Assembly: GCA_017480785.1 (NCBI GenBank)
Contig: JAFURZ010000002.1
Span: forward strand, 112,738 to 176,737
Length of the DNA stretch: 64,000 nucleotides
Origin: Bacteroidales bacterium
GTDB lineage: Bacteria > Bacteroidota > Bacteroidia > Bacteroidales > P3
Reading direction: 5' to 3'
Position numbers and translations under genes: made by a program. The notes below the pieces were generated by a model. It saw only the letters and a list, made by a program, of their open reading frames with translations. It was not told the DNA's origin and did no database searches. Below are positions 1,460 through 62,523 of this stretch, in pieces; the first letter of the stretch is position 1, and each line of letters begins with the position of its first letter.

Positions 1460-1541
1460 GTTCTTTTGTTGTTCTTTTGTTGTTCTTTTACTGTTCTTTT
1501 ACAAAAAGCGTAATACTACCGTAATACTACCGAAGAACAGT
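1460..1541. repeat. Composite 11-bp tandem array (two unit types)
   Basis: Four consecutive 11-bp units lie at 1460-1503: GTTCTTTTGTT twice, then GTTCTTTTACT and GTTCTTTTACA. They are followed by two copies of GTAATACTACC at 1510-1531 and an inverted half-unit GAAGAACAGT. The first unit type also builds arrays near 20.4, 38.6 and 60.1 kb, and the second builds the array near 48.3 kb. The locus sits in the 301-bp gap between the lipoprotein gene's stop and secA, upstream of the secA promoter. No other feature is seen in this gap. Confidence 0.85.
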
Positions 1542-1639
1542 GGTCGAAAACCCAGAGGATGTGGGGATTGTAGAAGGTGAAATGTGGAATGGGGCGTGGT
1601 CAGAGCGCGTCGTGGACGACGTTGGAGCTGCCGGAGGTG

Positions 1640-2188
1640 CTATTTGACCAAGCGGACGGAATGCCCTTGGTCGCGGTGATGGTTGGTCACACTCACGTTG
1701 TCGGCATTGAAGACAAGCGCCCATGCGTTGTTCTGCCCGTCCTGTGTGGACGACCAGTAGTTGCCCATAACACCCTCCTGTTGCACTGTGCCGTCGTACC
1801 AGCGATAGCCGACAGCAGGCAAAAAGATGCTGTTACCGTTGGCGCCGACTACGGAATATCCCGTACCCGTCCATGTCCATTGGCACTCATCCTTCAGTTC
1901 GCGCAACTGGTCGACTGTGGGCATCCCGTCTCCGAATGCGGCCTTGGCGGCGTTGTAGTCGTAGAAGCCGAAGGTGGTGTCGGCGTCGTTAGGCTCGTTT
2001 TGTTCGCACCACAGTGTTCCGCTCGGAAGTCCAAGGTCGACATACTCTTCCTGAACGTCAGGCACATCGCCGCCTCCCGATGTGGTGTCCTGGGCAGGCA
2101 GTGAGTTGTTGTCTTTCTTGCAGCCTGTGACTGTAACGGCTGCGACAGCCATAAGGCACAAGGCGGTGGTATAAATTATTCTTCTCAT
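1640..2188 (-). CDS. Lipoprotein with a FISUMP/DUF1566-like domain
   Basis: A 182-residue protein with a lipoprotein signal peptide: positive MRR, a hydrophobic stretch, then VTGC with the lipidated Cys at about residue 22. The mature part begins with an acidic linker and VDLGLPSGTLWCEQN, then a domain ending in GNYWSSTQDGQNNAWALVF and a basic HSVRLVK tail. The 'VDLGLPSGTLW' and 'YWSST' motifs typify the Fibrobacter/Bacteroidota surface-protein domain related to DUF1566. No catalytic site is recognisable, so the role is unknown. It starts 20 bp after the era stop on the same strand and is probably co-transcribed with era. The lipoprotein call is firm; the domain name rests on these motifs. 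Confidence 0.8.
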   Translation of the reverse strand: MRRIIYTTALCLMAVAAVTVTGCKKDNNSLPAQDTTSGGGDVPDVQEEYVDLGLPSGTLWCEQNEPNDADTTFGFYDYNAAKAAFGDGMPTVDQLRELKDECQWTWTGTGYSVVGANGNSIFLPAVGYRWYDGTVQQEGVMGNYWSSTQDGQNNAWALVFNADNVSVTNHHRDQGHSVRLVK

Positions 2189-2208
2189 GGTTGACGGGTT
2201 TGTTATTG

Positions 2209-3087
2209 CTAGTCCTCCACGGCGTAGCCGAACTGCTTCAGGGCGCGGTCGCTGTTGCGCCAGTCCTTGAGTACCTTTACGTGGAGGCTGAGGAAGCAGC
2301 GCTTGCCGGTGAACTCCTCGATGTCCTTGCGGGCCTCGGTGCCCAGTTTCTTGATGGCCTTGCCCTGGTGGCCTATGAGGATGGCTTTCTGGCTCTCGCG
2401 CTCGACGAAGATGATGCAGTCGATGTTGTCGATGCCGTCGCGCTCCTCGTAGCTGCCCACGGCCACCTCGCAGCTGTAGGGTATCTCCTTCTGGTAGTAG
2501 AGGAGTATCTTCTCGCGCACTATCTCGCTGACGAAGAAGCGCATGGTCTGGCTCGTGAGCTCGTCCTCGGGGAAGTAGGCGGGGTGCTCGGGCAGCAGGG
2601 CCAGGATGGTGTTGAAGATGCGGGTCAGGTTGAAGCCCTCGGTGGCGGAGCAGGGGATGACGACGGCGCGCGGTATCTCCTGCTGCCAGTAGTCTATCTT
2701 CTCCTGCACGGCCTGCTGGTTCGAGAGGTCAATCTTGTTGATGACAAGCAGCACGGGCACCTTCGACTTGACGATGCGCTCCTGGAGGGCCTTGTTCTTC
2801 AGGGGCTCGCCCATCTCGGTGACCAGCAGGAAGAGGTCGGCATCCTGCAGGGCGGTGCCTATGTAGCCCATCATCTGCTCGTGCAGCTTGTTGGCGGGGT
2901 TGACGATACCGGGGGTGTCGGTGTAGATGATTTGGAAGCCCGCGCCGTTGACGATGCCCATCACGCGCTTGCGCGTGGTCTGCGCCTTGCTGGTGATGAT
3001 GCTCAGGCGCTCTCCCACGAGGGCGTTCATCAAGGTCGACTTGCCCACGTTGGGGTTCCCGATGATATTTACGAAACCGCTTTTCAT
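2209..3087 (-). CDS. era: GTPase Era
   Basis: Era binds the 3' end of 16S rRNA and acts in 30S assembly. The 292-residue sequence has the normal length and order: G1 GNPNVGKS near residue 10, a conserved TTR in switch I, G3 DTPG near residue 57, G4 NKID near residue 117, G5-like SATEG, and a C-terminal KH domain with GHQGKAIKKLGTEARKDIE. The start is the ATG at 3087, giving MKSGFVNIIGNPNVGKS. A heptamer array (3087-3107) begins exactly at this start codon, so the upstream leader is built of repeat DNA. The lipoprotein gene follows 20 bp downstream. Confidence 0.97.
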   Translation of the reverse strand: MKSGFVNIIGNPNVGKSTLMNALVGERLSIITSKAQTTRKRVMGIVNGAGFQIIYTDTPGIVNPANKLHEQMMGYIGTALQDADLFLLVTEMGEPLKNKALQERIVKSKVPVLLVINKIDLSNQQAVQEKIDYWQQEIPRAVVIPCSATEGFNLTRIFNTILALLPEHPAYFPEDELTSQTMRFFVSEIVREKILLYYQKEIPYSCEVAVGSYEERDGIDNIDCIIFVERESQKAILIGHQGKAIKKLGTEARKDIEEFTGKRCFLSLHVKVLKDWRNSDRALKQFGYAVED

Positions 3088-4421: not shown

Positions 4422-4471
4422 CATTTCGACTTGAGTTCGACTTGAAAACAAGTCGAACTCAAGTCGAAATG
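4422..4471. repeat. Perfect fold-back with an 11-bp step
   Basis: Two perfect 23-bp arms (4422-4444 and 4449-4471) flank an AAAA loop. Within each arm the core TTCGACTTG recurs at an 11-bp step, giving two units per arm. It lies between the start of the secreted-protein gene (minus) and the island promoter (plus), so it is not at a gene 3' end. Confidence 0.85.
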
Positions 4472-15679: not shown

Positions 15680-15688
15680 TGTTGTAAA

Positions 15689-15773
15689 GTTTAAGGTTTA
15701 AGGTTTAAGGTTTAAAGTGTCAGAGACTTCGGGTTGCGTAGCTTCCTTAAACTTTAAACCGTAACCCTTAAAC
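15689..15773. repeat. Inverted pair of heptamer arrays at the nqrC 3' end
   Basis: Plus-strand units GTTTAAG x3 and GTTTAAA at 15689-15716, then a 29-bp loop, then CTTAAAC, TTTAAAC, CGTAACC and CTTAAAC at 15746-15773. The two arrays are mutually inverted. Together they encode the last residues of NqrC (…[11 protein letters not shown]… and …SDTLNLKP), so the NqrC C-terminus is repeat-derived. Confidence 0.8.
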
Positions 15774-20216: not shown

Positions 20217-20607
20217 AGATGGATATTTTTTTAGATTTTGTTAATGAATAGTTTATTACAGTCGTTGCCTTTTCAGGCGACCGCAAAGATACGAAAAAAA
20301 AACCGAATGTGAGAAGCCTCGATTTTGTCGAAAAACAGGCCTCGTGAGGGTGCTTTCGGGAGGCCTTGTTTTTCAGCCGATTAGTCGGAATTCTTTAGGA
20401 GTTCTTTACGAATTTGTAAAAGAACAGTAAAAGAACAGTAAAAGAACAGTAAAAGAACAGCGGGGTAAATGGCGGAGAGACAGGGGGATGCGGGGCGGGG
20501 TGTTTTGTGGGTGTCAACAGCCTGTTGTTGATAGATTTTCTATGATATGGATGCAATAATAATGTAGCTGGGACGTTATATGTTTGTTTTATATGAAATG
20601 ATAAAAG
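20217..20607. other. Divergent intergenic region aspA / thioredoxin-fold gene
   Basis: A 391-bp gap between divergent starts. A minus-strand TATCTTTG (complement of 20284-20291) could be the aspA -7 box, but no clear TTTG lies 19-21 bp upstream. An 11-bp array occupies 20390-20460. The remainder, up to the GTG at 20608, is AT-rich with no recognised site. Confidence 0.5.
20390..20460. repeat. 11-bp array around a short centre
   Basis: Left units ATTCTTTAGGA and GTTCTTTACGA (20390-20411), a centre ATTTGT, then four inverted units AAAAGAACAGT x3 plus AAAAGAACAG (20418-20460). The arm copy numbers are unequal (2 versus 4). The array lies in a divergent promoter region, so it is not a simple terminator. 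Confidence 0.88.
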
Positions 20608-29402: not shown

Positions 29403-29475
29403 CGCCTTACCAAGGCCTTATCAAGTCCTTACCAACGCCTTATCAAGTCTTACCACGGTGGTAAGAGGTAAGGCG
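29403..29475. repeat. 11-bp array with central fold-back, CTTACCAA type
   Basis: Four 11-bp units CGCCTTACCAA, GGCCTTATCAA, GTCCTTACCAA, CGCCTTATCAA (29403-29446), then a hairpin CTTACCAC/GTGGTAAG (29449-29465) and one inverted unit GGTAAGGCG. It lies between the convergent CDF and gmhB genes, where it could also terminate transcription. Confidence 0.85.
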
Positions 29476-38489: not shown

Positions 38490-38609
38490 TGGTCGAGCGG
38501 TTTCTTTGTTCCCTGCAAAGATACGAATAAAAAAAGAATATGGACTGCCTGGAAAATCGAAATCCCTAACGTGCTCTCTCCCGGTAATTTCTGCTCCTGG
38601 TCTATTGTT

Positions 38610-38646
38610 GTTCTTTTCCTGTTCTTTTACTTTTCTAAAAGAACAG
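38610..38646. repeat. 11-bp array with fold-back
   Basis: Units GTTCTTTTCCT and GTTCTTTTACT (38610-38631), then an inverted unit TAAAAGAACAG (38636-38646). The hairpin arms CTGTTCTTTTA and TAAAAGAACAG are perfect. It has the same unit as the arrays at 1.5, 20.4 and 60.1 kb. Confidence 0.85.
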
Positions 38647-42454: not shown

Positions 42455-42529
42455 TGATAGTGCGGGCGCCACTCCAGAGTGGCGCCCGCTGCTTTCTTAC
42501 TTCTGTGCTCACTCTGTGCACGTTCCATA

Positions 42530-42581
42530 CGAGTTCTTTAGGAGTTCTTTACGATTTTGTAAAGAACTCCTAAAGAACTCG
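42530..42581. repeat. Perfect 11-bp array fold-back
   Basis: CGAGTTCTTTA and GGAGTTCTTTA, a loop CGATTTTG, then TAAAGAACTCC and TAAAGAACTCG. There are two units per arm and 22-bp perfect arms. It is closely related in unit to the array at 62461-62523. Confidence 0.9.
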
Positions 42582-42628
42582 TGGCAAACCGATGTCGAAG
42601 ACAGAGCCCTGAAAGGGCGGCAATCGAT

Positions 42629-46014: not shown

Positions 46015-46016
46015 GG

Positions 46017-47274: not shown

Positions 47275-47385
47275 CCGATTCTGATGCCTTTCATTACATT
47301 GTTGTTACCGAATAAAAAAAAACTATGTCCTTACACTTGAATTGACGCACAAAAGGACCAAATCTTACAGGTGGTAATCGTTTTA

Positions 47386-47706: not shown

Positions 47707-47849
47707 CTCGCTTACCGGATTGGCAGGGTGCCCGGGATTGGGGGAAACTTAAAACCGGTAGTTTACTTCCGAATTTAATGAAAAAATAAGGAGTATAGTC
47801 ACGAAATTCGACCATCTTCTTCATCATCAGCGGCTCCAGTTCGAGGAAA

Positions 47850-48115
47850 CTCAAACGTTCGGGGGCCAATACCCTCGGTGGACGTGCCATCCCGGAGACG
47901 CTCTATCCGCTTGTGTGGCCCGAGGTGACCGACTTCCAGATTGACCGTGCCGTGCGGAACGGCATGCTGCCGCGTCACTACGTGGTCGGGAGGAGCATCT
48001 CGACAGCCGTCTGATTCTCGTTTCCCTCGACCCCGTCACCCGCCGTTCGGGCGACGTGGAACTCATCTATGTCACAGACTTTTTCCGGATGTTTTGGGGC
48101 GGAGAAATATTCTAA
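47850..48115 (+). pseudogene. Frameshifted gene debris
   Basis: Two plus-strand pieces in different frames look coding: LGGRAIPETLYPLVWPEVTD with FQIDRAVRNGMLPRHYVVGR to about 48013, then LDSRLILVSLDPVTRRSGDV, ELIYVTDFFRMFWGGEIF and a stop at 48115. No start is present. The parent family is not recognised. Confidence 0.35.
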
Positions 48116-48249
48116 AGTTACATCAATGTTCTTAAGTGCAGGAAGGTATGTTCCAATAAGGAACGCAACTTTTTGAGTGAGGAACAAGGTTGTAAAAGGA
48201 GTTATATCCGGCAATGTAAGAGAGGGGAAACACTTCCGTCCCCCTACAT

Positions 48250-48336
48250 CCTCTGCCATTTTAACGGTAGTATTACGCTAGTATTACGGTAGTATTACGC
48301 TTTAAAAGCGTAATACTACCGTTAAAATGGCAGAGG
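48250..48336. repeat. 11-bp array inside a 16-bp inverted repeat
   Basis: Outer perfect 16-bp arms CCTCTGCCATTTTAAC (48250-48265) and its complement (48321-48336). Inside are GGTAGTATTAC, GCTAGTATTAC, GGTAGTATTAC, a palindromic 11-bp centre GCTTTAAAAGC (48299-48309) and one inverted unit GTAATACTACC. The arm counts are 3 versus 1. The unit recurs at 1510-1531. Confidence 0.9.
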
Positions 48337-48482
48337 AAACCCTGCTCGATTCGTTTGAACGTGGATTGCCGGGAATGGGCTGTTGATTGTCCGTTAATTG
48401 TTGTGTGACAGACGACTTTCTTCCTGTCACTACGCAGATGGCGTGGCAAGTGCTTTTCTTATAAGTCAGCTACTCGCCTATG

Positions 48483-51125: not shown

Positions 51126-51160
51126 AATTTGCACATTTACGCATTAACGCATTCCCACAT

Positions 51161-52792
51161 TCAGACGCGTTTTATGTCTCTTGGTATTTTCTTGAACCTG
51201 ATGTTCTTCAGCAGCATCTCATCGGGTGAGATCAGGCAGCGGTCGGCATAGATGATGTACATCTCAGCTTTGTCCTTTATGGTGAAGGTGCGCAGGAAGT
51301 CCCGATCCAGGCAGGTCTCCTCGCCGCGGATGTAGTAGAAGTAGTAGTTGTTCTCTTGGTGGGTGCCGAGCAGGTAGGGGTGGCTCTCATTGCCGGGAGC
51401 GATGTAAGGCGAGTTGGTCTCGCTGAACCATACGTAACGGCGTATCTGCTCAGTGTCGGCTTGGTCGTTGAGGTTGCCGGTCACGGGGTCGAAGATGGTC
51501 TCGCCCAGCTCGTAGAAGTCGAAGCTGCTGCCTGTGCCCTCCACCTTGTTATTGCCCTCTCCGTAGCCCTTCATCACGCGGCGCACACGCTCGGCGGTGA
51601 TTCTCTCGGCATAATCCATCATTTCGCAGAGGATAAACTTGCGGTTGCCGCCATCCTGCTTGTTGAGATTAAGGACAGCGTGAGCCGTTGTGCCGCTGCC
51701 AGCAAAGCTGTCGAGGATGATGGAGTCTTTGTCGGCGTTTGCCATTTTTAGAACAATCTCCAACAACTCTACTGCTTTAGGGTAGTCAAATGGGGATGTT
51801 CCATAGAATACTTCTTTGAGTGTCTTTGTACCGTTGCCTATCTCGTCAACCCACGTAGTAAACTTCTTTGTTTCAAACTCACCCTCATTAGGTGCATATA
51901 TACGTTCGTAGGGTGTCCATTCACCATACTCATTCTTCACAAATTCCACCCTCTTCTCGTTGATTGCATTTGTCATGTTGCTGGCGCTCCAGCGCCAGCG
52001 ACTCTCAATTTTAATAAATTGAGAGTCGCTACCACTGGGCGCCTGATAGATTATAGGGTATACATCCGTCCCGTCGGGTGCTTTTATTGGATAGTACAAA
52101 TTTGGTCTGTTTTCTCTGAGGCTGTTTGAACCCCACTTACGCAAAAGTTGTGTTTTGTAATATCTACCTGTTTCTGTATCATACTTTGGGTACACAGAAC
52201 CCTCTTTTATCTGAACACCAGCCTTAAAATTGCTAATACTTTTTGCGTAGCATATTAGGTACTCATGTACAACAGCGTAGTATTTACTATCCTGCCTTCC
52301 TCCTTGTCTGTGGATAGGCATACTTGCAAGATGATTTGTTTTTCCAAATACCTCATCACAAATCAACTTCAGATTAGCCTGCTCGTTATCGTCGATAGAG
52401 ATGAATATTGCTCCATCTTCAGACAGCAACTTTTGCAGCAGCACCAGCCGGGGGTACATCATGCAGATCCACTTGTCGTGTCGGGTGAGGTCGTCAACCT
52501 CGGAGCCGACCACCTTGCCGAGCCAACGGCGGATGTGCGGGTCGTTCACATTGTCGTTGTACACCCATCCCTCGTTGCCGGTGTTGTAGGGCGGGTCGAT
52601 GTAGATGCACTTCACCTTCCCTTCGTACTGAGGCAGCAGCGCTTTGAGGGCTTCGAGGTTGTCCCCGTGTATAATCATATTGCCGGAGTCGGGAGAGTCT
52701 CCGAAAGTGTATTTGCGGTCGAGCACACGATATGGCACATCCAAATGGTGTGTGACGACCTTCTCCTTGCCAATCCAATCGAGTGTGGGCAT
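51161..52792 (-). CDS. mod: Type III modification methyltransferase Mod subunit
   Basis: A 543-residue DNA adenine methyltransferase providing sequence recognition for the type III system. Motif IV DPPYNTG (residues 66-72) precedes motif I DSFAGSGTTAHAV (about residue 365), the beta-class order. The stretch between them holds the target-recognition region (about 140-300). Typical landmarks include GNMIIHGDNLEALKALLPQY, FISIDDNEQANLKLICDEVFG and the C-terminal RDFLRTFTIKDKAEMYIIYAD. No simple-sequence tract that would suggest phase variation is seen. The promoter is probably at 53106-53136 with a leader of about 300 nt. Confidence 0.94.
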   Translation of the reverse strand: MPTLDWIGKEKVVTHHLDVPYRVLDRKYTFGDSPDSGNMIIHGDNLEALKALLPQYEGKVKCIYIDPPYNTGNEGWVYNDNVNDPHIRRWLGKVVGSEVDDLTRHDKWICMMYPRLVLLQKLLSEDGAIFISIDDNEQANLKLICDEVFGKTNHLASMPIHRQGGRQDSKYYAVVHEYLICYAKSISNFKAGVQIKEGSVYPKYDTETGRYYKTQLLRKWGSNSLRENRPNLYYPIKAPDGTDVYPIIYQAPSGSDSQFIKIESRWRWSASNMTNAINEKRVEFVKNEYGEWTPYERIYAPNEGEFETKKFTTWVDEIGNGTKTLKEVFYGTSPFDYPKAVELLEIVLKMANADKDSIILDSFAGSGTTAHAVLNLNKQDGGNRKFILCEMMDYAERITAERVRRVMKGYGEGNNKVEGTGSSFDFYELGETIFDPVTGNLNDQADTEQIRRYVWFSETNSPYIAPGNESHPYLLGTHQENNYYFYYIRGEETCLDRDFLRTFTIKDKAEMYIIYADRCLISPDEMLLKNIRFKKIPRDIKRV

Positions 52793-53105
52793 AGTTAGTC
52801 TGCTTTTCAGCGCAGCTGCCTATCGAGAATTGCGGGTCGGGATATAAAAGGCGACGAGGCTTCAGTTTGTGCCTATCGTCTTTCAAGGTATCCGCATACC
52901 CACATCATCAATAAGCAGACTTACGCCTCGCGCGCAGACGTCTTGCCTATTTGCGATGATGTTCTTTTCTATATTGCGGATTTTAGAAAGACTCGAATAT
53001 CAGCAAACGCTATGTTATTTTGTATCTTTGTTATTGTCTTTGATACTATTTATTTCTCTGTCGTTTAGTTTGTTACTATTATTGTTGTTTTGTCGTTACG
53101 TACCG

Positions 53106-53136
53106 CAAAGATACGGAGATTATTTTAAATTTCCAA
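53106..53136 (-). promoter_or_regulatory. Probable promoter of the type III system
   Basis: On the minus strand TTG (complement of 53134-53136), a 20-bp spacer and TATCTTTG (complement of 53106-53113), about 310 bp before the mod ATG. Confidence 0.5.
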
Positions 53137-53429
53137 GCAACTTTCTTGTCTTCACAGGACATTTGTTATAGAGAGTCTCACCTCTCCGAGGTGATTCATT
53201 CTTATTTTTCGTGTAATTCGCCGTTCAAAAATGGTGTTTTTGCCGTCGGGGAGGAAGTGGGCGGAGTGGGAAAGATGTGTCTGTTTGTGGGAAAGTTGGG
53301 TACTTTCGTGGGTCGATTTTAGGCATTTTGCATTTTTGCCCTTATATTGTCCGGCAGAGCAGACAAAAAAGCTCGCTTGTGTGGGCTGAAAAAAAACAAA
53401 AAATGCATTACTATGAAAAGGACATTTAC

Positions 53430-53472
53430 AAAAAAGACCCCGAGAGACAGTCCTGACGGATGCCTCCCGGGG
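53430..53472 (-). terminator. Intrinsic terminator of valS
   Basis: On the minus strand CCCCGGGAG pairs with CTCTCGGGG around a 17-nt loop and is followed by TCTTTTTT, just past the valS stop. Confidence 0.8.
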
Positions 53473-53495
53473 GGAGGGGTAGAGGCGCGCAAGGT

Positions 53496-56216
53496 TTATT
53501 GCAGGGCCTCGATTTGGGCCTTGAGGGCTGCAATCTTGGTCTCGGCGTCGCGCTGCTTGTTGCGCTCTTTCTCGATGACGGCTGCGGGGGCGCCGCCCAC
53601 GAACTTCTCGTTGGAGAGTTTCTTCAGCACGCTGGCCAGAAAGCCTTCGGCGTATTTCAGTTCCTCCTGCAGCTTGCGCAGCTCTTCCGCCTTGTTGACG
53701 TTCTGGCTCATGGGCACGAAGCATTCGGTGGTGCCAATCATAAAGCTCAGGGCACTGGAGGGTTTCTCGCTGACAGCCTGCACGGCGCTGACGTTGGCCA
53801 GTTTGCGGATGATGCCCTCGAAGCGGCTGACCTGGAAGCGGTTGTCGCTGGCGATGTAGCTCACCTCCAGTGGCTCTTTGGGCGAGAGGTTGCGCGTGTT
53901 GCGGATGTTGCGCACGCCGGCGATGACTTCGCGGGCGGTGTCGAACTCGTCGAGCAGGCGCTGGTCGTAGAAGACGCTGGTGGGCATGTGCTGGTTCATA
54001 ATGGAGAAATTGGCATTGAAGAAAGTGGCTTTCTCGTCGTCCTTGCCCATGGTTTGCAGGGCATGCCATATCTCTTCGGTGACGAAGGGCATGAAGGGGT
54101 GGAGGAGGAGCATGAGACGGGTGAAAATGGAGATGGTGGCGTCGTAGGTGTCGCGGTCGATGGGGGTGCCGTAGGCGGGCTTGACCATCTCGAGATACCA
54201 GGAGCAGAAGTCGTCCCAGGCCAGCTTGTAGGTGGCCATGAGGGCTTCGCTGAGGCGGTACTGGTCGAAGTCCTTCTCAATTTCCTCGATGACCTGCGCC
54301 ATGCGCTGCTCCATCCACTGGACGGCGACCTCGTTCTCCCGGCTCTGCTGCCCGTCGCCGACCTGCCAGCCGCTGACGAGGCGGAGGGCGTTCCAGAGCT
54401 TGTTGCTGAAGTTGCGGCCCTGTTCGCAGATGGCCTCGTCGAAGGGGAGGTCGTTACCCGCCGGGGCGGTGAGGAGCATGCCCATGCGGACGCCGTCGGC
54501 GCCGTATTTCTCGATGAGCATGATGGGGTCGGGGCTGTTGCCGAGGCTCTTGCTCATCTTGCGGCCCAGCTTGTCGCGTACGATGCCGGTGAAATAGACG
54601 TTGTGGAAGGGCACGTCGTGCATGTATTCCTCGCCGGCCATGATCATGCGGGCCACCCAGAAGAAGATGATGTCCGGGGCGGTGATGAGGTCGGCCGTGG
54701 GGTAGTAGTAGTTGATTTCGGGATTGCCGGGGTTGCGGATGCCGTCGAAGAGGGAGATGGGCCAGAGCCAGGAGGAAAACCACGTGTCGAGCACGTCCTC
54801 GTCCTGGCGCAGGGCGCCGGTGTAGTTGTACTTCTCGGCGGCAATCTTACGGGCTTCCTCCTCGTTGAGGGCCACGATGGTCTCCACACGGCCGTCGTGC
54901 TCGAAGTACCATGCGGGGATGCGCTGGCCCCACCAGAGCTGGCGGCTGATGCACCAGTCCTTGATGTTCTCCAGCCAGTGGCGGTAGGTGTTCTTGAACT
55001 TGGCGGGGTGGAAGCGGATGGTGTCGTCCTCGACGACTTCGAGGGCCTTCTTAGCCACGCCGTCCATCTTCATGAACCACTGGGCCGAGAGTTTGGGCTC
55101 GATGACGGCGTCGGTGCGCTCGCTGTGGCCCACCTTGTTGGTGTAGTCCTCGGTCTTCTCGACGAGGCCGGCCTCCTCGAGGTCTTTCATAATGGCCTTG
55201 CGGCAGGCAAAGCGGTCCATGCCGGCATACTTGCCTCCATGTTCGTTCAGTGTGCCGTTGTCGTTGAAGATGTCGATGCTCTCGAGGCCGTATTTCATGC
55301 CGAGGTTGTAGTCGTTGATGTCGTGGGCGGGGGTTATCTTCAGGGCGCCGGTGCCGAACTCACGGTCTACATACTCGTCCATGATGATGGGCACCACGCG
55401 GCCCACGCCGGGTACGATGACACGTTTGCCGCGGAGCCATGAGTAGCGCTCGTCCTCGGGGTGCACGCAGACGGCTGTGTCGCCCATGATGGTCTCGGGG
55501 CGCGTGGTGGCCACGACGATGTACTTTTCAGTGGGTAGTGGGTAGTGGGTAGTGGGTAGCGCATGTTCGCGAGTGCTATCCACTACACACTCCTCACTAT
55601 CCACTACATAGTATTTCAGGTAGAAGAGTTTGCCGTGGCTTTCCTTGTAGATGACCTCCTCGTCGCTGACGGCGGTGAGGGCCTGGGGGTCCCAGTTGAC
55701 CATACGCACGCCGCGGTAGATGAGGCCCTTGTTGTAGAGGTCGACGAAGACGCGGATGACGCTCTCGTAGCGTACCTCATCCATAGTGAAGGCGGTGCGG
55801 TCCCAGTCGCACGAGGCGCCGAGCTTGCGGAGCTGCTTCAGGATGATGCCGCCGTGCTCTTCCTTCCATTCCCATGCGTACTTCATGAACTCGTCGCGCG
55901 AGAGGGAGCGCTTGTCGATGCCACGGTCGGCGAGCATCTTCACCACTTTGGCCTCGGTGGCGATACTGGCGTGGTCGGTACCGGGTACCCAGCAGGCGTT
56001 TTTGCCCTGCATACGGGCGCGGCGGACGAGGACGTCCTGGATGGTGTTGTTGAGCATGTGGCCCATGTGGAGCACGCCGGTCACGTTAGGTGGCGGGATG
56101 ACCACGGTGTAGGGCACGCGGTTGTCGGGCTCCGAGTGGAAGAGTTTCTTGTCAAGCCAGAACTGGTACCATTTCTCCTCGATGGCACGAGGGTCGTATT
56201 TCGATGCTAATTCCAT
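53496..56216 (-). CDS. valS: Valyl-tRNA synthetase with an in-frame repeat insert
   Basis: Class Ia synthetase, 906 residues. HMGH ([15 protein letters not shown], near residue 51) and KMSKS ([11 protein letters not shown], near residue 552) are intact. The editing domain has [17 protein letters not shown], and the C-terminal coiled coil ([20 protein letters not shown]…) is present. Between LKYYV and [11 protein letters not shown], where family members have a few residues, about 27 residues ([24 protein letters not shown]) are encoded by two inverted heptamer arrays (55531-55612). The insert is in frame, at the entrance to the CP1 editing domain. It follows the rhomboid gene by 12 bp. Confidence 0.96.
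55531..55612. repeat. Inverted pair of heptamer arrays inside valS
   Basis: GTGGGTA x4 (55531-55558), a 19-bp spacer, then TATCCAC, TACACAC, TCCTCAC, TATCCAC, TACATAG (55578-55612). The second block is inverted relative to the first. The nine units total 63 bp, a multiple of three, so the frame is kept. Confidence 0.85.
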
Positions 56217-56228
56217 ATTGTGTATTGT

Positions 56229-56840
56229 TTATATTCTTGAAAAGGGGTGTTTTCGCCAGTAAAGGATGAGCAGGAAGCCGATGAGCATGCCGCCGAGGTG
56301 TGCGAAGTGGGCCACGCCGTCGTAGGAGCGGAAGATACCCTCGAAGAGCTCGATGGCTATCATGCCAATGATGAACCATTTGGTCTTGATGGGGACGAGG
56401 AAGTAGAGATATACGTATTCGTTGGGCCACATCATGCCGAAGGCCAGCAGGAGGGCGTAGACGGCGCCCGAGGCACCCACACTGACGTGTACACCCGGCA
56501 CCAGCAGGTTCAACAGGCCGGCCCCGATGCCGCAGACGAGGTAGTAGAAGAGGAAACGCCGCGTGCCCCAGTAGCGCTCCAGCACGGCACCGAACATCCA
56601 TAGGGAGAACATGTTGAAGAAGAGGTGGTCGAACGAGCCGTGCATGAACATGTAGGTCAGGGGTTGCCACAGACGGAACATGCCGCTGCTTGGCGTCCAG
56701 ATGCCGAGCCAGTAGTTGAGGTCTATTATCTGCTGTTTGGCCAGTATGTAGTAGGCGGCATAGCAGAGCACATTGATGATGAGCAGGTGCTTCACTGCCG
56801 GCGGCAGCAGGCGGTAGCCTTGGGGTTGGTATTGTGCCAT
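56229..56840 (-). CDS. Rhomboid-family intramembrane serine protease
   Basis: A 203-residue membrane protein with six helices. The catalytic Ser is in GASGAVYA (Ser124) and the His in AHFAHLGGMLIG (His181, fitting HxxGxxxG). The conserved loop FRLWQPLTYMFMHGSFDHLFFNMFSLWMFG and the WR-like ERYWGTRRF are present. It cleaves membrane-anchored substrates, which are unknown here. It lies 2 bp after mutL and 12 bp before valS in what looks like one operon with the thioredoxin gene. Confidence 0.93.
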   Translation of the reverse strand: MAQYQPQGYRLLPPAVKHLLIINVLCYAAYYILAKQQIIDLNYWLGIWTPSSGMFRLWQPLTYMFMHGSFDHLFFNMFSLWMFGAVLERYWGTRRFLFYYLVCGIGAGLLNLLVPGVHVSVGASGAVYALLLAFGMMWPNEYVYLYFLVPIKTKWFIIGMIAIELFEGIFRSYDGVAHFAHLGGMLIGFLLILYWRKHPFSRI

Positions 56841-56842
56841 TT

Positions 56843-58612
56843 CTATTTCAGTAGTTCTTCAGGTTTGACGATGGTGATGATTTTCTTGCCCGAGGGAGAC
56901 ACCTCGGCCATGGGGCAGGCGAAGAGGTCGGCCACCAGCTGCTGCATCTCCTCTTGCGAGAGGTGGGTGCCGGCGCGGACAGCCATCTGGCGGGCCAGCG
57001 AGCGGCTGAGGCTCTCCGAGCGATGGCTGAACTTCTGCATGGTGGAGCCTTTGTAGTCGGTGAGCAGCTGCTCGAGCAGCGCCTGCAGGTCGGCCTCCTT
57101 GAGGCTGGCGGGGGTGGCGGTGACCACGAAGGTGGTCTGTCCCACCGGCGTCATCTCGAAGCCATAGGCTTTGAGGTCGGGCATCAACTCGCCCAGCAAC
57201 TCGGCATCGGCGGCCGAGAAAGAGCAGTTGACGGGGAACAGCAATGTCTGCGAGACAGGGGGAAGCGAGTCGCCTTGGGTCATGAGGCGGTCGTAGATTA
57301 TCCGCTCGTGGGCCCGCTGCTGGTCAATGAGGGCCAGCCCCGACGAGAGGGTGGTGACGATATAGCGCCCCTGCACCTGCAGGCAGGTATTTGATGCCGG
57401 GGGAATGGGTTTGTCCAGACAGTCGAGTGGCTCAGGGCTCTCCATGCGCTCCAGGTTGGCCGGCTCTTCCGGCCGTTCCATCTTCATCCGCATCTGGCTG
57501 CTGCCGGCCTTGAAGGGGTTGTAGTCGGGGTCGTACTTCAGGTGTGGCATTGGCGGTGTATAGCCTTTGGGTGCTGGCGGCAGGTTGAACTCCTCGGGGG
57601 TATCGAAGCTCAGCTCTGTGGCCAGGCTGAACTGGCCCAGGGACCGCTTGACGACCGACCGCAGGATGGCGAACAGGGCGTGCTCGTCGACAAACTTCAC
57701 CTCGGTCTTGGTGGGGTGGATGTTGATGTCTATCTTTGACGGGTCGACCGTGAGGCCGATGAAGTAGCTGGGGTAGGAGTGGTCGGGCAGCAGGTCGCCA
57801 TAGGCGCGTTCCACCGCCGCGCTGAGGGCGGGGTGCTTGATGTAGCGCCCGTTGACGAAGATATACTGCTCGCTGCGCGTGCGCCGGCTATATTCCGGAC
57901 GGCTCACGAAGCCGCGAATGCTCACCAGGTCGGTCTGCTCCTCGACGGCGAACATGCGCTCCTTGTAGGCGTTGCCGTAGAGGCCTGCGATGCGTTGCAA
58001 CAGGGTGCCCGGCTTGAGGTCGTAGACCGTCTTGCCGTTGCTGCTGAGGGTGAAGCCCAGGTCGTGGTGGATGAGGGTGACGCGGCGGAACACCTCCTCG
58101 ATGTGGCTGAACTCGACGCTGTCTTTCTTCAGGAAGTTGCGTCGGGCCGGCACGTTGAAGAAGAGGTTCTTCACCGAGAGCGACGTGCCCGCCGGGCATA
58201 CCGTGGGCTGCTGGCTGACGATGTGCGAGCCCTCGATGAGCACCTGTGTACCCAGCTCGCTGTCGTGCTGCCGTGTGCGCAACTCCACCTGCGCGATGGC
58301 GGCGATGGATGCCAACGCCTCGCCGCGGAAGCCCATGGTGTGGATGGCGAAGAGGTCGTCGGCACGGTGTATCTTGCTCGTGGCATGGCGCTCGAAGCAG
58401 AGGCGCGCGTCGCTGTCGCTCATACCCTTGCCGTTGTCGATGACCTGAATCAGCGTGCGACCGGCATCCTTCACGACGAGGTCTATCTGTGTGGCCTCGG
58501 CGTCCATCGAGTTCTCCAGCAGCTCCTTCACCGCTCCGGCGGGACGGTCCACCACCTCGCCGGCCGCTATCTGGTTGGCTACGCTGTCGGGCAGTATGTT
58601 GATAATATCCAT
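56843..58612 (-). CDS. mutL: DNA mismatch repair protein MutL
   Basis: A 589-residue protein. The GHKL ATPase domain is intact: KELLENSMDAEATQIDL, DNGKGM, CFERHATSKI, GFRGEALASIAAI, then the transducer domain with NGRYIKHPALSAAV and DINIHPTKTEVKF. In the C-terminal dimerisation/endonuclease domain the usual DQHA(x)2E(x)4E reads DQQRAHERIIYD, with Gln for His and Asp for the last Glu. This departs from the metal-dependent nicking motif. The conserved C-terminal ACRMAVR-like region reads SLARQMAVRAGTHLSQEEM. It lies 8 bp after the thioredoxin gene and 2 bp before the rhomboid gene. Confidence 0.95.
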   Translation of the reverse strand: MDIINILPDSVANQIAAGEVVDRPAGAVKELLENSMDAEATQIDLVVKDAGRTLIQVIDNGKGMSDSDARLCFERHATSKIHRADDLFAIHTMGFRGEALASIAAIAQVELRTRQHDSELGTQVLIEGSHIVSQQPTVCPAGTSLSVKNLFFNVPARRNFLKKDSVEFSHIEEVFRRVTLIHHDLGFTLSSNGKTVYDLKPGTLLQRIAGLYGNAYKERMFAVEEQTDLVSIRGFVSRPEYSRRTRSEQYIFVNGRYIKHPALSAAVERAYGDLLPDHSYPSYFIGLTVDPSKIDINIHPTKTEVKFVDEHALFAILRSVVKRSLGQFSLATELSFDTPEEFNLPPAPKGYTPPMPHLKYDPDYNPFKAGSSQMRMKMERPEEPANLERMESPEPLDCLDKPIPPASNTCLQVQGRYIVTTLSSGLALIDQQRAHERIIYDRLMTQGDSLPPVSQTLLFPVNCSFSAADAELLGELMPDLKAYGFEMTPVGQTTFVVTATPASLKEADLQALLEQLLTDYKGSTMQKFSHRSESLSRSLARQMAVRAGTHLSQEEMQQLVADLFACPMAEVSPSGKKIITIVKPEELLK

Positions 58613-58615
58613 CTT

Positions 58616-58647
58616 CTCCTTTACTCCTTTACTCCTTTACTCCTCTT
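58616..58647. repeat. 8-bp tandem repeat at the thioredoxin/mutL junction
   Basis: CTCCTTTA three times, then CTCCTCTT. It spans the stop of the thioredoxin gene (encoding its EKRSKGVKE tail) and the leader of mutL. Confidence 0.75.
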
Positions 58648-60012
58648 CTCATAGTTGCTCAGGAATGGCAGCAGGCTCTTGATGGGCAGCACCTTGTTCA
58701 TTATAATGTCGCGCCGTTCGTTGAGGATTATCATCGTCGGGGCGCCGTGCACGTTGTAGGCCTCCTGGTAGTCGACGTTGACGTTCGGGCCGCCGACGTT
58801 CACCCAGCGGAAGTCGTGCTCCTTCACGTAGCGTTTCCATTTCTCCACGTCGCTGTCGTAGCCCACGGCGTAGACCTCGAAGCGGCGGTCGGGGGCTGTC
58901 TGCAGCGAGTCGTAGAGCACCTTCAGCTCGGCGCTCTGCTCCTGGCAGTGGTGGCAGTCGGGGTCCCAGAACCAGAGGATGACGTAGCGGGCAGGCTGCC
59001 GGTGCGACGAGTGCCAGTGTTCGGGGGCGTCAATCTGTGTCGTGTCGAGCATCCACAGCTCCTGTCCGTGGGCTCCGATGATGCTCTTGCTGATGCGGTC
59101 GTAGTTCTGGCGAGCCAGGTAGACCTCGCTCTCGCGCATCCACGGGCAGCGCCCTTTGAGGATGTATTCCCAGGCGATGTGGCACCACACGGCGTCCCAC
59201 CCGATGTTGCGCGTGGAGCGGTAGTAGCGGGGCTCGAGGAACTGCAGCACGTAGCGCGCCATGGCCGTGTCGGGGCCTATGCGCTGCATCAGGCGGTCCA
59301 GGTCCTTGACGATGGTGTCGGCATCGGCGCGGTAGAGCATGCCGAAGAAGAAGACGTTCATCTTGTCGAACAGCTGGGGGCTGTACAGCAGCTCCGTGCC
59401 GATGCCCTTGGGCTGGGCGTCGAACAGCGGGTCCCAGTAGTGGAGGCGGTAATAGAGAGCCTTGTCGGCTATGCTGTCGGGCACCATGGAGGGTTCGCAG
59501 AGGTCGATGAGTTGCAGGTAGAGGTTGTCCTTGCCCCGTTGGCGGGCCTGGGCCTCGTAGGCGTTCATGCGTGCCGCCAGCGCGTCGAGGGGTGCGCCGG
59601 CTTTCTGCAGGCTGTCGGCCTCGCGGCGGGCGGCCTCCTCGGTGGCGCGGTAGTCATACATCAGCTGGTTGGCCGCGCTCCCCTTCACCTTGATGCTGGC
59701 GGCCGAGAGCTTGGCGTCGCCCTTGATGGTGAAGGAGCGGCTGTCGTCAATCAGGAAGTCGGTGAGCACCGTCTTGTGGTCTTGCCGCACGAGGGCGTAG
59801 ATGCCGCGGCCCCAGGGGCGCTGACCGGCAAAGAGGCACCCCTTCGCGTCGAGGCGTGCCGAGTCGAGCAGGTGCACCTCGTCGCGGTAGTGGCGGGCCA
59901 CATAGAGCATCGTGTCGGTGCAGCCGTTGGCTACAAAGCGCAGCTTGACGGGTTGCGCCTCGGCCGCGAGAGCCAGCACCAGCAGGGGCAGTAGTGAGAA
60001 CAGTCGTTTCAT
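58621..60012 (-). CDS. Periplasmic TlpA-like thiol-disulfide protein
   Basis: A 463-residue protein with a signal peptide (MKRLFSLLPLLVLALAAEAQ) and a DUF4369-like N-domain (VKLRFVANGCTDTMLYVARHY). A helical middle (DUF5106-like) follows, then a C-terminal thioredoxin fold with an intact redox motif WDPDCHHCQEQSAELKVLYD and cis-Pro loop HGAPTMIILNERRD. It probably reduces or isomerises periplasmic disulfides. It shares layout with the Cys-lacking protein at 20608-22083. The final residues are encoded by an 8-bp repeat. It is the first gene of the operon with mutL, rhomboid and valS. Confidence 0.87.
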   Translation of the reverse strand: MKRLFSLLPLLVLALAAEAQPVKLRFVANGCTDTMLYVARHYRDEVHLLDSARLDAKGCLFAGQRPWGRGIYALVRQDHKTVLTDFLIDDSRSFTIKGDAKLSAASIKVKGSAANQLMYDYRATEEAARREADSLQKAGAPLDALAARMNAYEAQARQRGKDNLYLQLIDLCEPSMVPDSIADKALYYRLHYWDPLFDAQPKGIGTELLYSPQLFDKMNVFFFGMLYRADADTIVKDLDRLMQRIGPDTAMARYVLQFLEPRYYRSTRNIGWDAVWCHIAWEYILKGRCPWMRESEVYLARQNYDRISKSIIGAHGQELWMLDTTQIDAPEHWHSSHRQPARYVILWFWDPDCHHCQEQSAELKVLYDSLQTAPDRRFEVYAVGYDSDVEKWKRYVKEHDFRWVNVGGPNVNVDYQEAYNVHGAPTMIILNERRDIIMNKVLPIKSLLPFLSNYEKRSKGVKE

Positions 60013-60128
60013 CCCTTTTTAAATATTTAACTATTTACAACGCCCACGGCGCCGTTTTATTGTATGTCGCGAAAAAAAATATACCGACTCCTGCATAACT
60101 TCCTGTTTCCTATACTGGTTATGTGGCT

Positions 60129-60177
60129 GTTCTTTTACTTTTCCAAAAGAACAGTAAAAGAACAGCAAAGGAACAGT
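60129..60177. repeat. 11-bp array with fold-back
   Basis: One unit GTTCTTTTACT (60129-60139), a centre TTTCC, then inverted units AAAAGAACAGT, AAAAGAACAGC, AAAGGAACAGT (60145-60177). The arm counts are 1 versus 3. A separate intrinsic terminator for the M13 peptidase gene lies at 60205-60246, so the array is not needed for termination. Confidence 0.88.
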
Positions 60178-60204
60178 CGGGGAAACAGCGGGTTGTGGAT
60201 GGAT

Positions 60205-60246
60205 GAAAAACGGCAGCGGCCCGGCTGTTGTGCCAGCCGGACCGCC
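60205..60246 (-). terminator. Intrinsic terminator of the M13 peptidase gene
   Basis: On the minus strand GCGGTCCGGCT pairs with AGCCGGGCCGC (one G-T) and is followed by TGCCGTTTTTC. It lies 38 bp after the stop. Confidence 0.8.
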
Positions 60247-60283
60247 GTCGGAGAGAGTGTGTGTGTCGGGGCAGGGCGTGTGC

Positions 60284-62341
60284 CTACCAGAGGAGGGCGC
60301 GTTTCTCGGGGGCGAGCCACATGCCGTCGCCTTCCTGGATGCCGAAGGCGTCGATGAACTCGGTCACCTGCGGCAGGGCCACGTTGACGCGGTTGCGACC
60401 CAGCGAGTGCACATCCATCTGGGTGAGCTGCAGGGCGGCAGCGGGACGTATGTTCGAGGCCCACACGGCGGCGTAGGCCAGGAAGAAGCGCTGCTCGGGC
60501 GTGAAGCCGTCCATCTCGTTCTTGTTCACCTGCTTCTTGGCCATGGCGTTCTGCATGGCGAGGTAGCTCACGTGGAGGCCACCGTTGTCGGCGATGTTCT
60601 CGCCCAGGGTCAGCTCGCCGTTGCCGTGGATGAGACCCAGCTCGGGGTCGTCGAGGGCCACGCAGGCGTTGAAGGCGTCGATGAGCGACTGCTTGTTGGT
60701 GTTGAAGTTCTCGGCGTCCTCTTCGGTCCACCAGTCGTTCAGGTTGCCCTGCTCGTCGTATTGGCGGCCCTGGTCGTCGAAGCCGTGGGTCAGCTCGTGG
60801 CCGATGACCACGCCGATGGCGCCGTAGTTGGCGGCCTCGTCAGCCTCCATGTTGAAGAAGGGGGGCTGTAGGATGGCGGCGGGGAAGCAGATTTCGTTGG
60901 TGGTGGGGTTGTAGTAGGCGTTGACGGTCTGCGGGGTCATCAGCCACTCGTCCTTGTCGACGGGCTTGTTGATTTTGCTCAGCATGTAGGCCATGTCGAA
61001 CTCGTTGCTGCGCACCACGTTGGCGTAGTAGCTGTCGTCCTTGATTTCCAAGCCGCTGTAGTCGCGCCACTTGTTGGGATAGCCAATCTTGACGTAGATG
61101 GTCTCCAGCTTCTTGTGGGCGTTGGCCTTGGTGGCGTCGGTCATCCAGGTGGCCATGTCGATGCGCTGGCCGAGGGCGGTGATGAGGTTCTGCACGAGGG
61201 TCTCCATGCGGGCTTTGGCCTCGGCGGGGAAGAAGCGCTCGACGTAGAGCTGGCCGAGGGCCTCGCCCATGGCGCCTTCGACGGTGGAGGTGACGCGTTT
61301 CCAGCGCGGACGGTTCTGCTCGCGGCCGCTCATCAGCTTGCCGAAGAAGTCGAAGTTGGCGTTCACGAAGTCGTCGCTCAGGTAGCTGGCGGCGCTCACT
61401 ATCTCGTGCCATGCGAAGTAGGCCTTCAGGGTCTCCACGTCGGTGTCTTTCAGCACCTTGTTGACCTCGGTGAAGTATTTGGGCTGGGCAATGTTGAAGC
61501 TCTTCATGCCGTCCATGATGCCCATGGTCTCGAAGTAGCCTTTCCAGTCGATGTTGGGTGCGAAGGCGGCGGCCTCGTCCACAGTGTAGCGGTTGAAGGT
61601 GGCCTGCGGGTCGCGGTTCTCGAGCTTGGTGTTCATGGCCTTGGCCAGGCGGGTCTCGAAGGTCATCACGGTCTGGGCCAGCTTGTCGGCCTTCTTGCCG
61701 CTCAGTTTGTCGTAGCCGGCCATGGCGAATTCCTTGGTCATCAGCGACACGTAGCCGGCGCGGATGTTCCTGTTGTTGCCTTCGTCGAGCAGGTAGTAGT
61801 CGCGGTCACCCAGACCGAGGCCGCTCTGGTAGGCCCAGGCGATGCACATCGAGGCGTCGTCCTTGTCGGCCTCGCCGAAGACGCCGAAGAGCACGTGGTT
61901 GCCGCGGCGGTGCATCTTGAGCAGCTCGGCCCAGGCATCCTCGTTGGTCTTCACGTTGTTGATTTCCTCGAGGTAGGGCATCAGCGGGTCGGCGCCCTGC
62001 TCCTGCAGGAGCACGCTGTCCATGCCGATGTTGTACATCGTGGCGATTTTGTCGGCCAGCGAGCCGGCGGCGTTCTCGTTCTTCGAGACGCTGTCGATAA
62101 TCTCGTTGACGTTCTTCAGGGCGTTCTCGGAGAGCACGTCGAAGGCACCGTAGCGTGAGTGCTCGGCGTCGAGGGGGTTCTTGGCCATCCAGCCGCCGCA
62201 GGCAAACTGGTAGAAGTCGTCCTGCAGACGGGCCGTGGTGTCGAAGTTGTCAGCGTCGATGCCCGACGTGAGCTGGGCCTTGTGCTGGCATCCGGTAGCG
62301 ATAACTGCCATAGTAGCAATGCTTAAAAGGGTTTTCTTCAT
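60284..62341 (-). CDS. pepO: M13-family zinc endopeptidase lipoprotein (PepO/neprilysin-like)
   Basis: A 685-residue protein with a lipoprotein signal (MKKTLLSIATMAVIATGC) and the N-terminal M13 domain (DDFYQFACGGWMAKNPLDAE). The gluzincin motif VIGHELTHGFDDQGRQYD (HExxH near residues 514-518) and the downstream Glu in GENIADNGGL are intact. Substrate-binding NAYYNPTTNEICFPAAILQPPFF and C-terminal FGIQEGDGMWLAPEKRALLW complete the family signature. It should be anchored in the envelope and cleave oligopeptides. It has its own consensus promoter (62380-62410) and terminator. Confidence 0.96.
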   Translation of the reverse strand: MKKTLLSIATMAVIATGCQHKAQLTSGIDADNFDTTARLQDDFYQFACGGWMAKNPLDAEHSRYGAFDVLSENALKNVNEIIDSVSKNENAAGSLADKIATMYNIGMDSVLLQEQGADPLMPYLEEINNVKTNEDAWAELLKMHRRGNHVLFGVFGEADKDDASMCIAWAYQSGLGLGDRDYYLLDEGNNRNIRAGYVSLMTKEFAMAGYDKLSGKKADKLAQTVMTFETRLAKAMNTKLENRDPQATFNRYTVDEAAAFAPNIDWKGYFETMGIMDGMKSFNIAQPKYFTEVNKVLKDTDVETLKAYFAWHEIVSAASYLSDDFVNANFDFFGKLMSGREQNRPRWKRVTSTVEGAMGEALGQLYVERFFPAEAKARMETLVQNLITALGQRIDMATWMTDATKANAHKKLETIYVKIGYPNKWRDYSGLEIKDDSYYANVVRSNEFDMAYMLSKINKPVDKDEWLMTPQTVNAYYNPTTNEICFPAAILQPPFFNMEADEAANYGAIGVVIGHELTHGFDDQGRQYDEQGNLNDWWTEEDAENFNTNKQSLIDAFNACVALDDPELGLIHGNGELTLGENIADNGGLHVSYLAMQNAMAKKQVNKNEMDGFTPEQRFFLAYAAVWASNIRPAAALQLTQMDVHSLGRNRVNVALPQVTEFIDAFGIQEGDGMWLAPEKRALLW

Positions 62342-62379
62342 ATTGTTTATTGTTGATTTTTAGTGAGCGAAACAAAATG

Positions 62380-62410
62380 CAAAAATACACATTTTCCCCG
62401 ACATGGCAAA
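62380..62410 (-). promoter_or_regulatory. Promoter of the M13 peptidase gene
   Basis: On the minus strand TTTG (complement of 62407-62410), a 19-bp spacer beginning CCATGTCGG, and TATTTTTG (complement of 62380-62387). The spacer start is the same as in the tRNA-Leu promoter. Confidence 0.8.
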
Positions 62411-62460
62411 AAAGATTATTCACGTGCTCTTTCCTGCCACTGATACTCAGGTATTTGCAT

Positions 62461-62523
62461 GCAGTTCTTTACGAGTTCTTTACGATTTTGTAAAGAATGC
62501 GTAAAGAACTCGTAAGGAACGGC
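62461..62523. repeat. 11-bp array with fold-back
   Basis: Units GCAGTTCTTTA and CGAGTTCTTTA (62461-62482), a centre CGATTTTG, then TAAAGAATGCG, TAAAGAACTCG, TAAGGAACGGC (62491-62523). The same unit and centre occur at 42530-42581, but here the copies have diverged. Confidence 0.88.

Follow-up and report, generated by a model that had tools for sequence, protein, structure and literature searches.

Bacterial proteins that read tandem 11-bp repeats include the MerR-family regulators CarH and CarA, whose operators consist of head-to-tail 11-bp units with few fixed letters. In the excerpts of the CarH study cited here, operators of three to five units of the form nnnnTnnACAn are bound on one DNA face; they are described at the promoters of carotenoid genes, and those excerpts report no dispersal across a genome (PMC9304148). 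RepB of plasmid pMV158 likewise contacts its 11-bp repeats from one side of the DNA. According to the cited sections, its bind locus belongs to a single plasmid origin, with three 11-bp tandem repeats plus a hairpin and 7-bp repeats (PMC9943647). Here we report on a window, by which we mean the whole 64,000-nucleotide stretch that was analysed from a Bacteroidales bacterium (GCA_017480785.1, contig JAFURZ010000002.1, positions 112,738 to 176,737 of the forward strand), where nine intergenic arrays are built from units that follow each other every 11 bp.

Dispersed repeats offer a second comparison. BrickBuilt, a miniature inverted-repeat transposable element (MITE) of Porphyromonas gingivalis, resembles the arrays in belonging to the Bacteroidales, in being intergenic, multi-copy and species-limited, and in carrying tandem units inside the element; in the excerpts cited, its unit is 23 nt long and of one sequence, with 19 copies in one strain and terminal inverted repeats like those of resident insertion sequences (PMC4596501). 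Heptamers such as TAACTGA, found in Beggiatoaceae, Cyanobacteria and some Bacteroidetes, likewise form numerous short direct repeats between genes at a constant step, but the parts cited describe a 7-bp unit of one sequence, almost only in direct orientation, which in the main genome in most cases sits immediately before start codons (PMC4679880). Repetitive extragenic palindromes (REP) and REPINs, which go with REP-associated tyrosine transposases (RAYT), are palindromic, intergenic and high-copy in the portions cited (PMC3116915, PMC3733652). Our arrays depart from BrickBuilt in their 11-bp step, their many unit sequences and the lack of a target-site duplication in the repeat family called B below. 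To our knowledge, an 11-bp tandem step is not a feature of REP sequences. Among open-licence papers on bacterial intergenic tandem repeats, 11-bp repeats and 11-bp periodicity or supercoiling, we found no description of such a rule.

An 11-bp step in the intergenic DNA of one genus

The first-pass annotation of the window had listed nine arrays, and the sequences at all nine places do carry 11-bp units. The observation of intergenic arrays with an 11-bp step is confirmed. Exact clusters (11/11) number five at lag 11 and none at lags 10 or 12; at 10/11 the counts are 13, 0 and 4, and the 13 lag-11 clusters are confined to the nine places. At this threshold lags 7, 14 and 21 reach 11, 11 and 13. 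An all-DNA sample of 464 kb from the same genome (2.25 Mb in 19 contigs) gave 41 exact clusters at lag 11, none at lags 10 and 13, and seven at lag 12, with lags 7, 14 and 22 raised too (26, 24 and 29). Lag 22 accompanies lag 11, and lags 7 and 14 form a second, heptamer class. Codon-phase lags such as 9, 12 and 21 come close to lag 11 when all of this DNA is counted at 10/11 (52-69 clusters, with 69 at lag 21, against 79), which is why masking of genes matters. With called genes masked and a threshold of 16/20 matches, the intergenic sample (63,942 bases) held 63 clusters at lag 11, none at lag 10 and two at lag 12. Lag 11 is much commoner than its neighbours in these samples, and the claim of arrays withstood this comparison. 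The accompanying statement that the step never changes is nearly right; the exception is the array at 29403, with 2-3% indels in the TRF output.

The same masked count was applied to relatives, which were found by protein match and, going by record titles, are Bacteroidales metagenome-assembled genomes, many from ruminant rumen or gut. In 52 named loci that match the M13 peptidase of the window at 64% identity or more, there are 69 clusters at lag 11, seven at lag 10 and two at lag 12; this count was repeated without runs of N, which had slightly raised one earlier congener count. Four loci of a nearer outgroup (51-53% identity, 10,694 intergenic bases) gave no lag-11 cluster. Another 23, more distant, loci gave none at lag 11, one at lag 10 and four at lag 12, and 18 unmasked stretches from other genera of the order gave one, one and two at lags 11, 10 and 12. 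Among the genomes sampled, the step is thus limited to the genus of the window. It is patchy there, with at least one array in 36 of the 52 loci and none in 16. Our first congener stretches were partly chosen near matches to the word GTTCTT (G023, G015, G035, G004, G002 and G044), and loci L092-L120 share many genomes with the 52 named ones. Of eight congener genomes sampled from contig 1 without such a choice, five had an exact lag-11 array.

The arrays lie in the gaps between transcription units. Merging the lag-11 clusters of the own-genome sample gave 58 loci, of which 52 are intergenic, five coding and one at an edge (genes were called with a simple caller, so that all counts of gene context are approximate). 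Among sampled gaps of at least 60 bp, 51 of 161, or about a third, contain an array, and a good part of the non-coding DNA of this genome therefore follows the 11-bp rule. Gaps shorter than 150 bp have an array in six of eight convergent cases, and in none of 37 tandem or eight divergent ones. In gaps of 150 bp or more the divergent class is richest (19/28), followed by tandem (22/66) and convergent gaps (4/14).

Units were said by the annotation to be specific to each locus, and this fails inside the genome itself, where the types GTTCTTTTACT and GTATTACGGTA turn up at dozens of sites and further types more than once. We distinguish families A (GTTCTTTTACT), B (GTATTACGGTA/GCTA), C (GTTC(A/G)ACTTGA), D (CGCCTTACCAA), E (GTTCTTTACGA/AGGA) and F (GTTCTTCGGCT). 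The pattern GTTCTTTNNNNGTTCTTT has 88 matches in the genome and its reversed control none; TAGTATTACGNTAGTATTACG with up to two mismatches has 193, against none for the control. From species to species the step persists, whereas the letters mostly differ (TACGGTGCATG, CAGGCGTTGAT, CTTGTACAATA, CTAGGTCAATA and TAGGAGTTGAG are among the other units). Three GTTCTT cores at the 11-bp step occur in 24 of 99 genomes of the genus, the own genome included, with one to 351 matches each (351 in G115, 55 in G111, 11 in G028). The lowest of these counts may be chance, since the reversed control matches three genomes (six, five and three times). In viruses the same arrays match 60 stretches, against 47 for a permuted control pattern, and the family A pattern matches none. 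In kind, the arrays are dispersed intergenic repeats; what is unusual is a length rule with exchangeable bricks.

Unlike units in a common register

Where unlike units meet, they keep to one grid. All 15 distinct junctions between unlike units near called arrays of the own genome fall on a single 11-bp grid with GT in the same phase. They are of the types F-B, B-F, C-B, B-C, F-C, C-F, A-E and F-E. Of eight junctions away from called arrays, four lie on the grid (B-C twice, B-A and A-B) and four off it. Spacing modulo 11 is 0 for A-E, F-E and the near-array F-C and C-F junctions, 10 for C-B, A-B and F-B, and 1 for B-C, B-A and B-F. This register places GT at one phase in families A, B, C, E and F, and five of the seven distinct units found between anchors begin with GT at the anchor phase. 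Unlike families in one register are hard to obtain by slippage of one unit.

Units are also exchanged at orthologous sites. We joined 25 rows over eight loci and inspected six loci in sequence. Upstream of the M13 peptidase gene, the own genome has the five family E units at 62459..62525, while L217 has three of the GTTCTTTTGCT type (arms 1/2); the interval between the conserved flanks is 83 bp in the former and 61 bp in the latter, a difference of exactly 22 bp, or two units. Behind another gene, the own genome has a family B element and L061 an unlike 11-bp hairpin array (CAACACCGTAC). In these alignments, one array type occupies at some places the site that another type has in a sister species. 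Four other sites have much shorter spacers in some relatives (103 and 101 bp vs 368; 74 vs 256; 14 vs 281; 216 vs 744); at the array at 60127..60178, for instance, L191 and L227 have a spacer reduced by about 265 bp. Rows with longer intervals in the relative exist as well (L017 against L180, L189, L188, L179 and L176; window 62460 against L186 and L192). Given the shorter spacers and the array swaps, arrays are gained and lost together with spacer DNA. In the closest collinear trio (L179, L188 and L189; 95-98% identical) the sole array is unchanged in both aligned pairs.

Our tentative explanation, to which we grant slightly less than an even chance, is that the arrays are one class of dispersed intergenic element on a fixed 11-bp grid, with units serving as same-face half-sites for a putative protein. 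Every unit would present, always on the same side of the helix, a degenerate half-site of a few letters, about GT(T/A)(C/T). The protein would bind head-to-tail, as CarH does on 11-bp repeats with only four fixed letters, and inverted arms would give two facing arrays. The length of 11 bp would be kept because a unit of any other length would leave the helix face. Letters that point away from this face would drift and become homogenised within a genome, as would the half-site itself in the long run. Bound arrays might separate transcription units as a roadblock or insulator, which is a guess from their position. We favour a protein reader on two grounds: it would force unlike units into a common register, and the known readers of 11-bp repeats, CarH and RepB, contact one side of the DNA, with only a part of each turn fixed in the case of CarH. 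The arrays and the CarH operators have tandem head-to-tail 11-bp direct repeats in common; the CarH core TNNACA is not enriched among congener units (8/74 vs 6.1 expected, with 103 of 400 shuffles as high). A single protein reading the grid would act across the genus as a boundary or nucleoid factor of uncultured gut bacteria, and its targets could be recognised by their spacing. The wider idea that a length rule is inherited rather than a sequence, with unrelated bricks swapping in register at the same places under one genus-specific reader protein or copying enzyme, seems to us rather unlikely as a whole.

Several observations weigh against a protein reader. No binding protein or function was found, although the MerR/B12 family was not sought in the genome. 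The annotation had proposed either a family of proteins that read repeats on one DNA face or a mechanism that copies in 11-nt steps; the former idea is partly supported, by the 15 on-grid junctions and the GT phase. With a wider word list, 31 of 40 junctions keep to the grid, and each of the remaining nine either departs from it or contains the family D word. In the strict count, from which the family D and GCCATTT words were dropped, all four off-grid junctions lie away from called arrays. The offsets used for family B and for GCCATTT were learnt from these same data, and distinct junctions are not evolutionarily independent, as copies are related. Moreover, many arrays are palindromes of perfect mirror symmetry, a property that a protein lattice alone would not demand.

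The half-site could not be established for the genus as a whole. Among 28 non-redundant congener units, GTWYWW occurs in 8 where 3.6 are expected (8 of 500 shuffles reach this), and without GTTCT units in 5 of 25 against 3.1 (85 of 500); it ranks 5th or 12th of 128 motifs of the same shape. An earlier excess, 26 of 74 units against 10.0, shrank to the first of these figures once similar units were merged, and we do not claim a genus-wide half-site. Variability within units at first looked clustered by half-turn (z 5.6 in 170 arrays, 3.8 in 32 distinct ones). This was an edge effect, as simulated neutral arrays gave z 6.0: trimming 8 nt left z 3.5 (66 arrays) and 1.9 (25 distinct), and the strictest trim, 11 nt, left 0.4 (35 arrays) and 1.1 (19 distinct). 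In a tally of 6-mers, AAGAAC ranked first, with 8 of 88 clusters (which include three runs of N) against 0.86 expected, and the top word of 300 shuffles also reached 8. The first unit outside arrays matches on the grid at 0.32 in the own genome and 0.31 in congeners, against 0.24 and 0.26 off the grid; beyond it the on-grid match is 0.25-0.28, apart from slight rises at units +5 to +8, where z reaches 3.0 at most.

Mobility, copying, termination and curvature

The arrays might instead be selfish non-autonomous mobile elements, MITE- or REPIN-like palindromes served by a transposase in trans, with the 11-bp units as its internal recognition repeats and without host function. We consider this rather unlikely. 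Family B looks like a recently spread element. Of 33 collected copies, 31 have a core of 73 bp; these align without gaps over 109 columns at 96% mean column identity. Copies run from CCTCCGCC to GGCGGAGG between flanks that are unlike each other, with the layout CCTCCGCCATTTT(T/A)ACGG, three TAGTATTACG units, a TTTAAAA-like centre and then the mirror. The family B pattern has its 193 matches in the own genome and five in 4 of 98 congeners. ATG stands outside exactly one end in 27 of the 33 copies, outside both in two and neither in four, mostly as ATGT(A/G)GGGG. The end motif with up to two mismatches has 49 matches against one for the control. Seventeen of the 33 copies lie in divergent gaps, compared with 9 of 37 for families A and E. 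Terminal inverted repeats together with dispersed near-identical copies were found for family B only (31 copies). Copies have demonstrably dispersed in B and have likely done so in family A and in the GTTCTT families of G111, G115 and G118. The high-copy palindromic families of G115 and G111, with many places near contig starts, fit mobility as well, and BrickBuilt is a precedent, in the excerpts cited, for a tandem repeat inside a Bacteroidales MITE (PMC4596501).

On the other side, family B lacks a target-site duplication beyond the level of shuffled partners: 31 of 33 copies have none and two have 2 bp, where shuffled partners give 25.7 and 7.3. A MITE that makes such duplications is thus not supported. 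Three genes in the own genome match Y1 transposases, as do genes in 63 of 99 genomes with the own one counted. One of them (L160, 1867-2349) is bracketed by copies of Acido-Lenti-1, at 1777-1822 and 2364-2409, and not by our arrays; the 11-bp array of this locus lies at a distance of about 0.9 kb. Around the other two matches, the sampled stretches (L159 and L161) have no 11-bp array. No Y1 match was found in the array-rich G111 (97% complete) or in G028. These neighbourhoods and the Y1-free genomes do not support an origin as REP elements of resident Y1 transposases. Mobility also leaves unexplained why units that are unlike should measure 11 bp in dozens of sampled genomes, and why arrays without an inverted arm exist (a strong arm through the array, with a score of at least 12, is present in 13 of 46 congener arrays).

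A copying process with an intrinsic 11-nt step, such as template switching, hairpin slippage or an A-form hybrid intermediate, would accept any unit sequence and need no reader protein. We hold it to be improbable. It would account for the near-absence of constraint on unit sequence across the genus next to a constant step, and for the unequal copy numbers of the arms. In family B, 3 of 53 mirror pairs have changes in both arms, amounting to 22 cells (a count reached by 1 of 500 shuffles), as expected from copying arm to arm, and the covariation score of 0.042 was reached by none of 500 shuffles. Other measures of the mirror do not exceed shuffles (pairs with a change on both sides, 3 vs 4.3; further pair types, 7 vs 8.1), and 12 of 26 rows lack pairing at the position three from the centre. 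The common register of unlike units is not what one would expect if a single unit were copied. Location also speaks against this process: 11-bp arrays are intergenic at 52 of 58 loci, whereas 15 of 25 lag-7 arrays lie in called coding frames, so that tandem duplication as such is not confined to gaps. If a copying process did make the grid, it would be a new way of making tandem DNA.

That the arrays are transcription terminators or RNA hairpins with chance internal repetition is hardly probable. Nearly all had been said to fold back on themselves, and eight of nine indeed beat dinucleotide shuffles as single-stranded DNA (z -2.0 to -12.4). Arrays also occupy most short convergent gaps, as at L033:5998-6026, about 40 bp from each gene. 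Divergent gaps are array-rich too, and separate GC-rich hairpins with T-rich tails stand beside the arrays at 42.5 and 60.1 kb, which bears out the earlier remark that termination alone is insufficient. A scan of window positions 42001-62000 found 27 terminator-like sites against 19.0 expected. At the three arrays of this interval it showed no intrinsic terminator (GC-rich stem and T run), the strongest hairpins lying beside the arrays; the sole overlap is a 5-pair call at 48329-48346, on the outer end of the 48249 element. With respect to genes, units point either way (family A runs five times one way and four times the other along co-directional genes), which favours DNA over RNA. Many congener arrays have no strong inverted arm, and none of the five Rfam matches in the window at the gathering threshold is at an array. 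Ordinary terminators are thus not supported.

The very improbable remaining option is that one-turn repeats of any sequence add bends in phase and position supercoils, 11 bp fitting negatively supercoiled DNA: the roughly 11-bp periodicity of bacterial DNA is commonly tied to negative supercoiling in the excerpts cited (PMC4132750), and in a wedge model the curvature of the arrays exceeds that of fully shuffled DNA by about 1 sd. They are no more curved than arrays with permuted unit columns (mean z -0.04, se 0.07, 149 arrays), so that under this model the letters were not chosen for bending, and selection for curvature is not supported. This option does not predict a common register with GT in phase, and the bending reading of the periodicity is itself disputed in the passages cited (PMC7537859).

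The nine arrays and other repeats nearby

The arrays of the window are listed in Table 1. The element at 48249..48337 is a shorter copy, outside both the 33 collected family B copies and the 31-copy alignment.

Table 1. Arrays of 11-bp units in the window, with fold z relative to dinucleotide shuffles (single-stranded DNA).
Position	Type	Units and arms	Context and similar places	Fold z
1460..1531	mosaic array	4 GTTCTTTT units, then GCGTAATACTACC + GTAATACTACC (family B right arm), then an end (GGTCGAAAACCCAGAGGATGTGGGG) resembling ends of other mosaic elements	between co-directional genes	+0.75 (no better than shuffles)
4422..4471	family C palindrome	TTCGACTTGAG, 2 units per arm, AAAA centre	divergent gap; family also at L032:11175 and L047:5327	-12.4
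20387..20461	chimeric palindrome	left 2 family E units (ATTCTTTAGGAGTTCTTTACG), right 4 family A units (AGTAAAAGAAC)	divergent gap; similar chimera at L045:1974	-2.0
29403..29475	family D array	CGCCTTACCAA, small indels, arms 5/2	convergent gap	-4.9
38609..38646	family A array	2/1 units	between 36996-38489 (-) and 39524 (+)	-4.8
42528..42583	family E perfect palindrome	CGAGTTCTTTAGGAGTTCTTTACG...	separate terminator-like hairpin adjoining at 42462-42489	-12.2
48249..48337	family B element	CCTCTGCCATTTTAACGG, units GGTAGTATTAC/GCTAGTATTAC 3 left + 1 right, CCGTTAAAATGGCAGAGG		-11.7
60127..60178	family A array	1/3 units	separate terminator-like hairpin adjoining at 60214-60247	-5.2
62459..62525	family E array	2/3 units		-10.7

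Flanks of the arrays have features of their own. A motif like CTGATAATCAG occurs within 60 bp of array ends in several species (L104:1260, L046:13682, L055:5106, window 62438 and others). With up to two mismatches it is present at 16 of 212 flanks against 1.2 in shuffled sequence; it was picked from the same flanks and marks too few arrays to define them. Outward flanks are G-rich on both sides in the own genome and in congeners, that is, the plus strand is C-rich to the left and G-rich to the right of an array. The word GGAGGGGG with at most one mismatch is found in 20 of 82 own-genome flanks against 1.8 expected, with a contribution from family B ends. In other genomes, array places within about 110 bases of a contig start make up 33 of 100 listed for G115 (contigs C9, C19, C20, C28, C36, C37, C45, C53 and others) and 9 of 40 listed for G111 (C1, C2, C10, C17 and others), as if the arrays were breaking the assemblies.

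A contig of a tailed phage (L259:12821-13041, L258:1270-1479) carries two arrays with an 11-bp step upstream of its small terminase gene. One is ATTACGGTAGT repeated 3.8 times, which is the host family B unit, and the other TCACTGAACGC/TCACTGATCAT repeated 10.7 times. They are possibly a packaging site. A near-reversed B pattern with one extra letter had no match in the searched collection.

Other repeats share this DNA. The Rfam family Acido-Lenti-1 (RF01687), listed as an sRNA, is in inverted orientation around the IS200-like Y1 gene of L160 and therefore looks like a REP-type transposon end; in the window it occurs at 42605-42650, 42757-42804 and 46921-46966. The second Y1 gene (L159:1989-2606) stands among hairpin-like sequence with CAATAACTCCA, and the window has a similar repeat at 38743-38816 (AGCCTCGAAGAGGCT...CAATAACCCCACAC). 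Heptamer tandem repeats are found at window positions 15685-15718, 22086-22127, 55530-55559, 62828-62890 and others, and the 52 named loci hold 71 clusters at lag 7, 22 at lag 8 and two at lag 6. Those in coding frames (15 of 25 in the own sample) may be phase-variable sites, as a 7-bp step shifts the frame. The window further contains a C/G-rich inverted repeat of another kind, similar to CCCCGACCCCCTCTCCGATTGGAGAGGG, at 18422-18515, 43907-44026 and 46024-46142, and a 45-bp unit is repeated 2.2 times with 96% match at 26983-27082.

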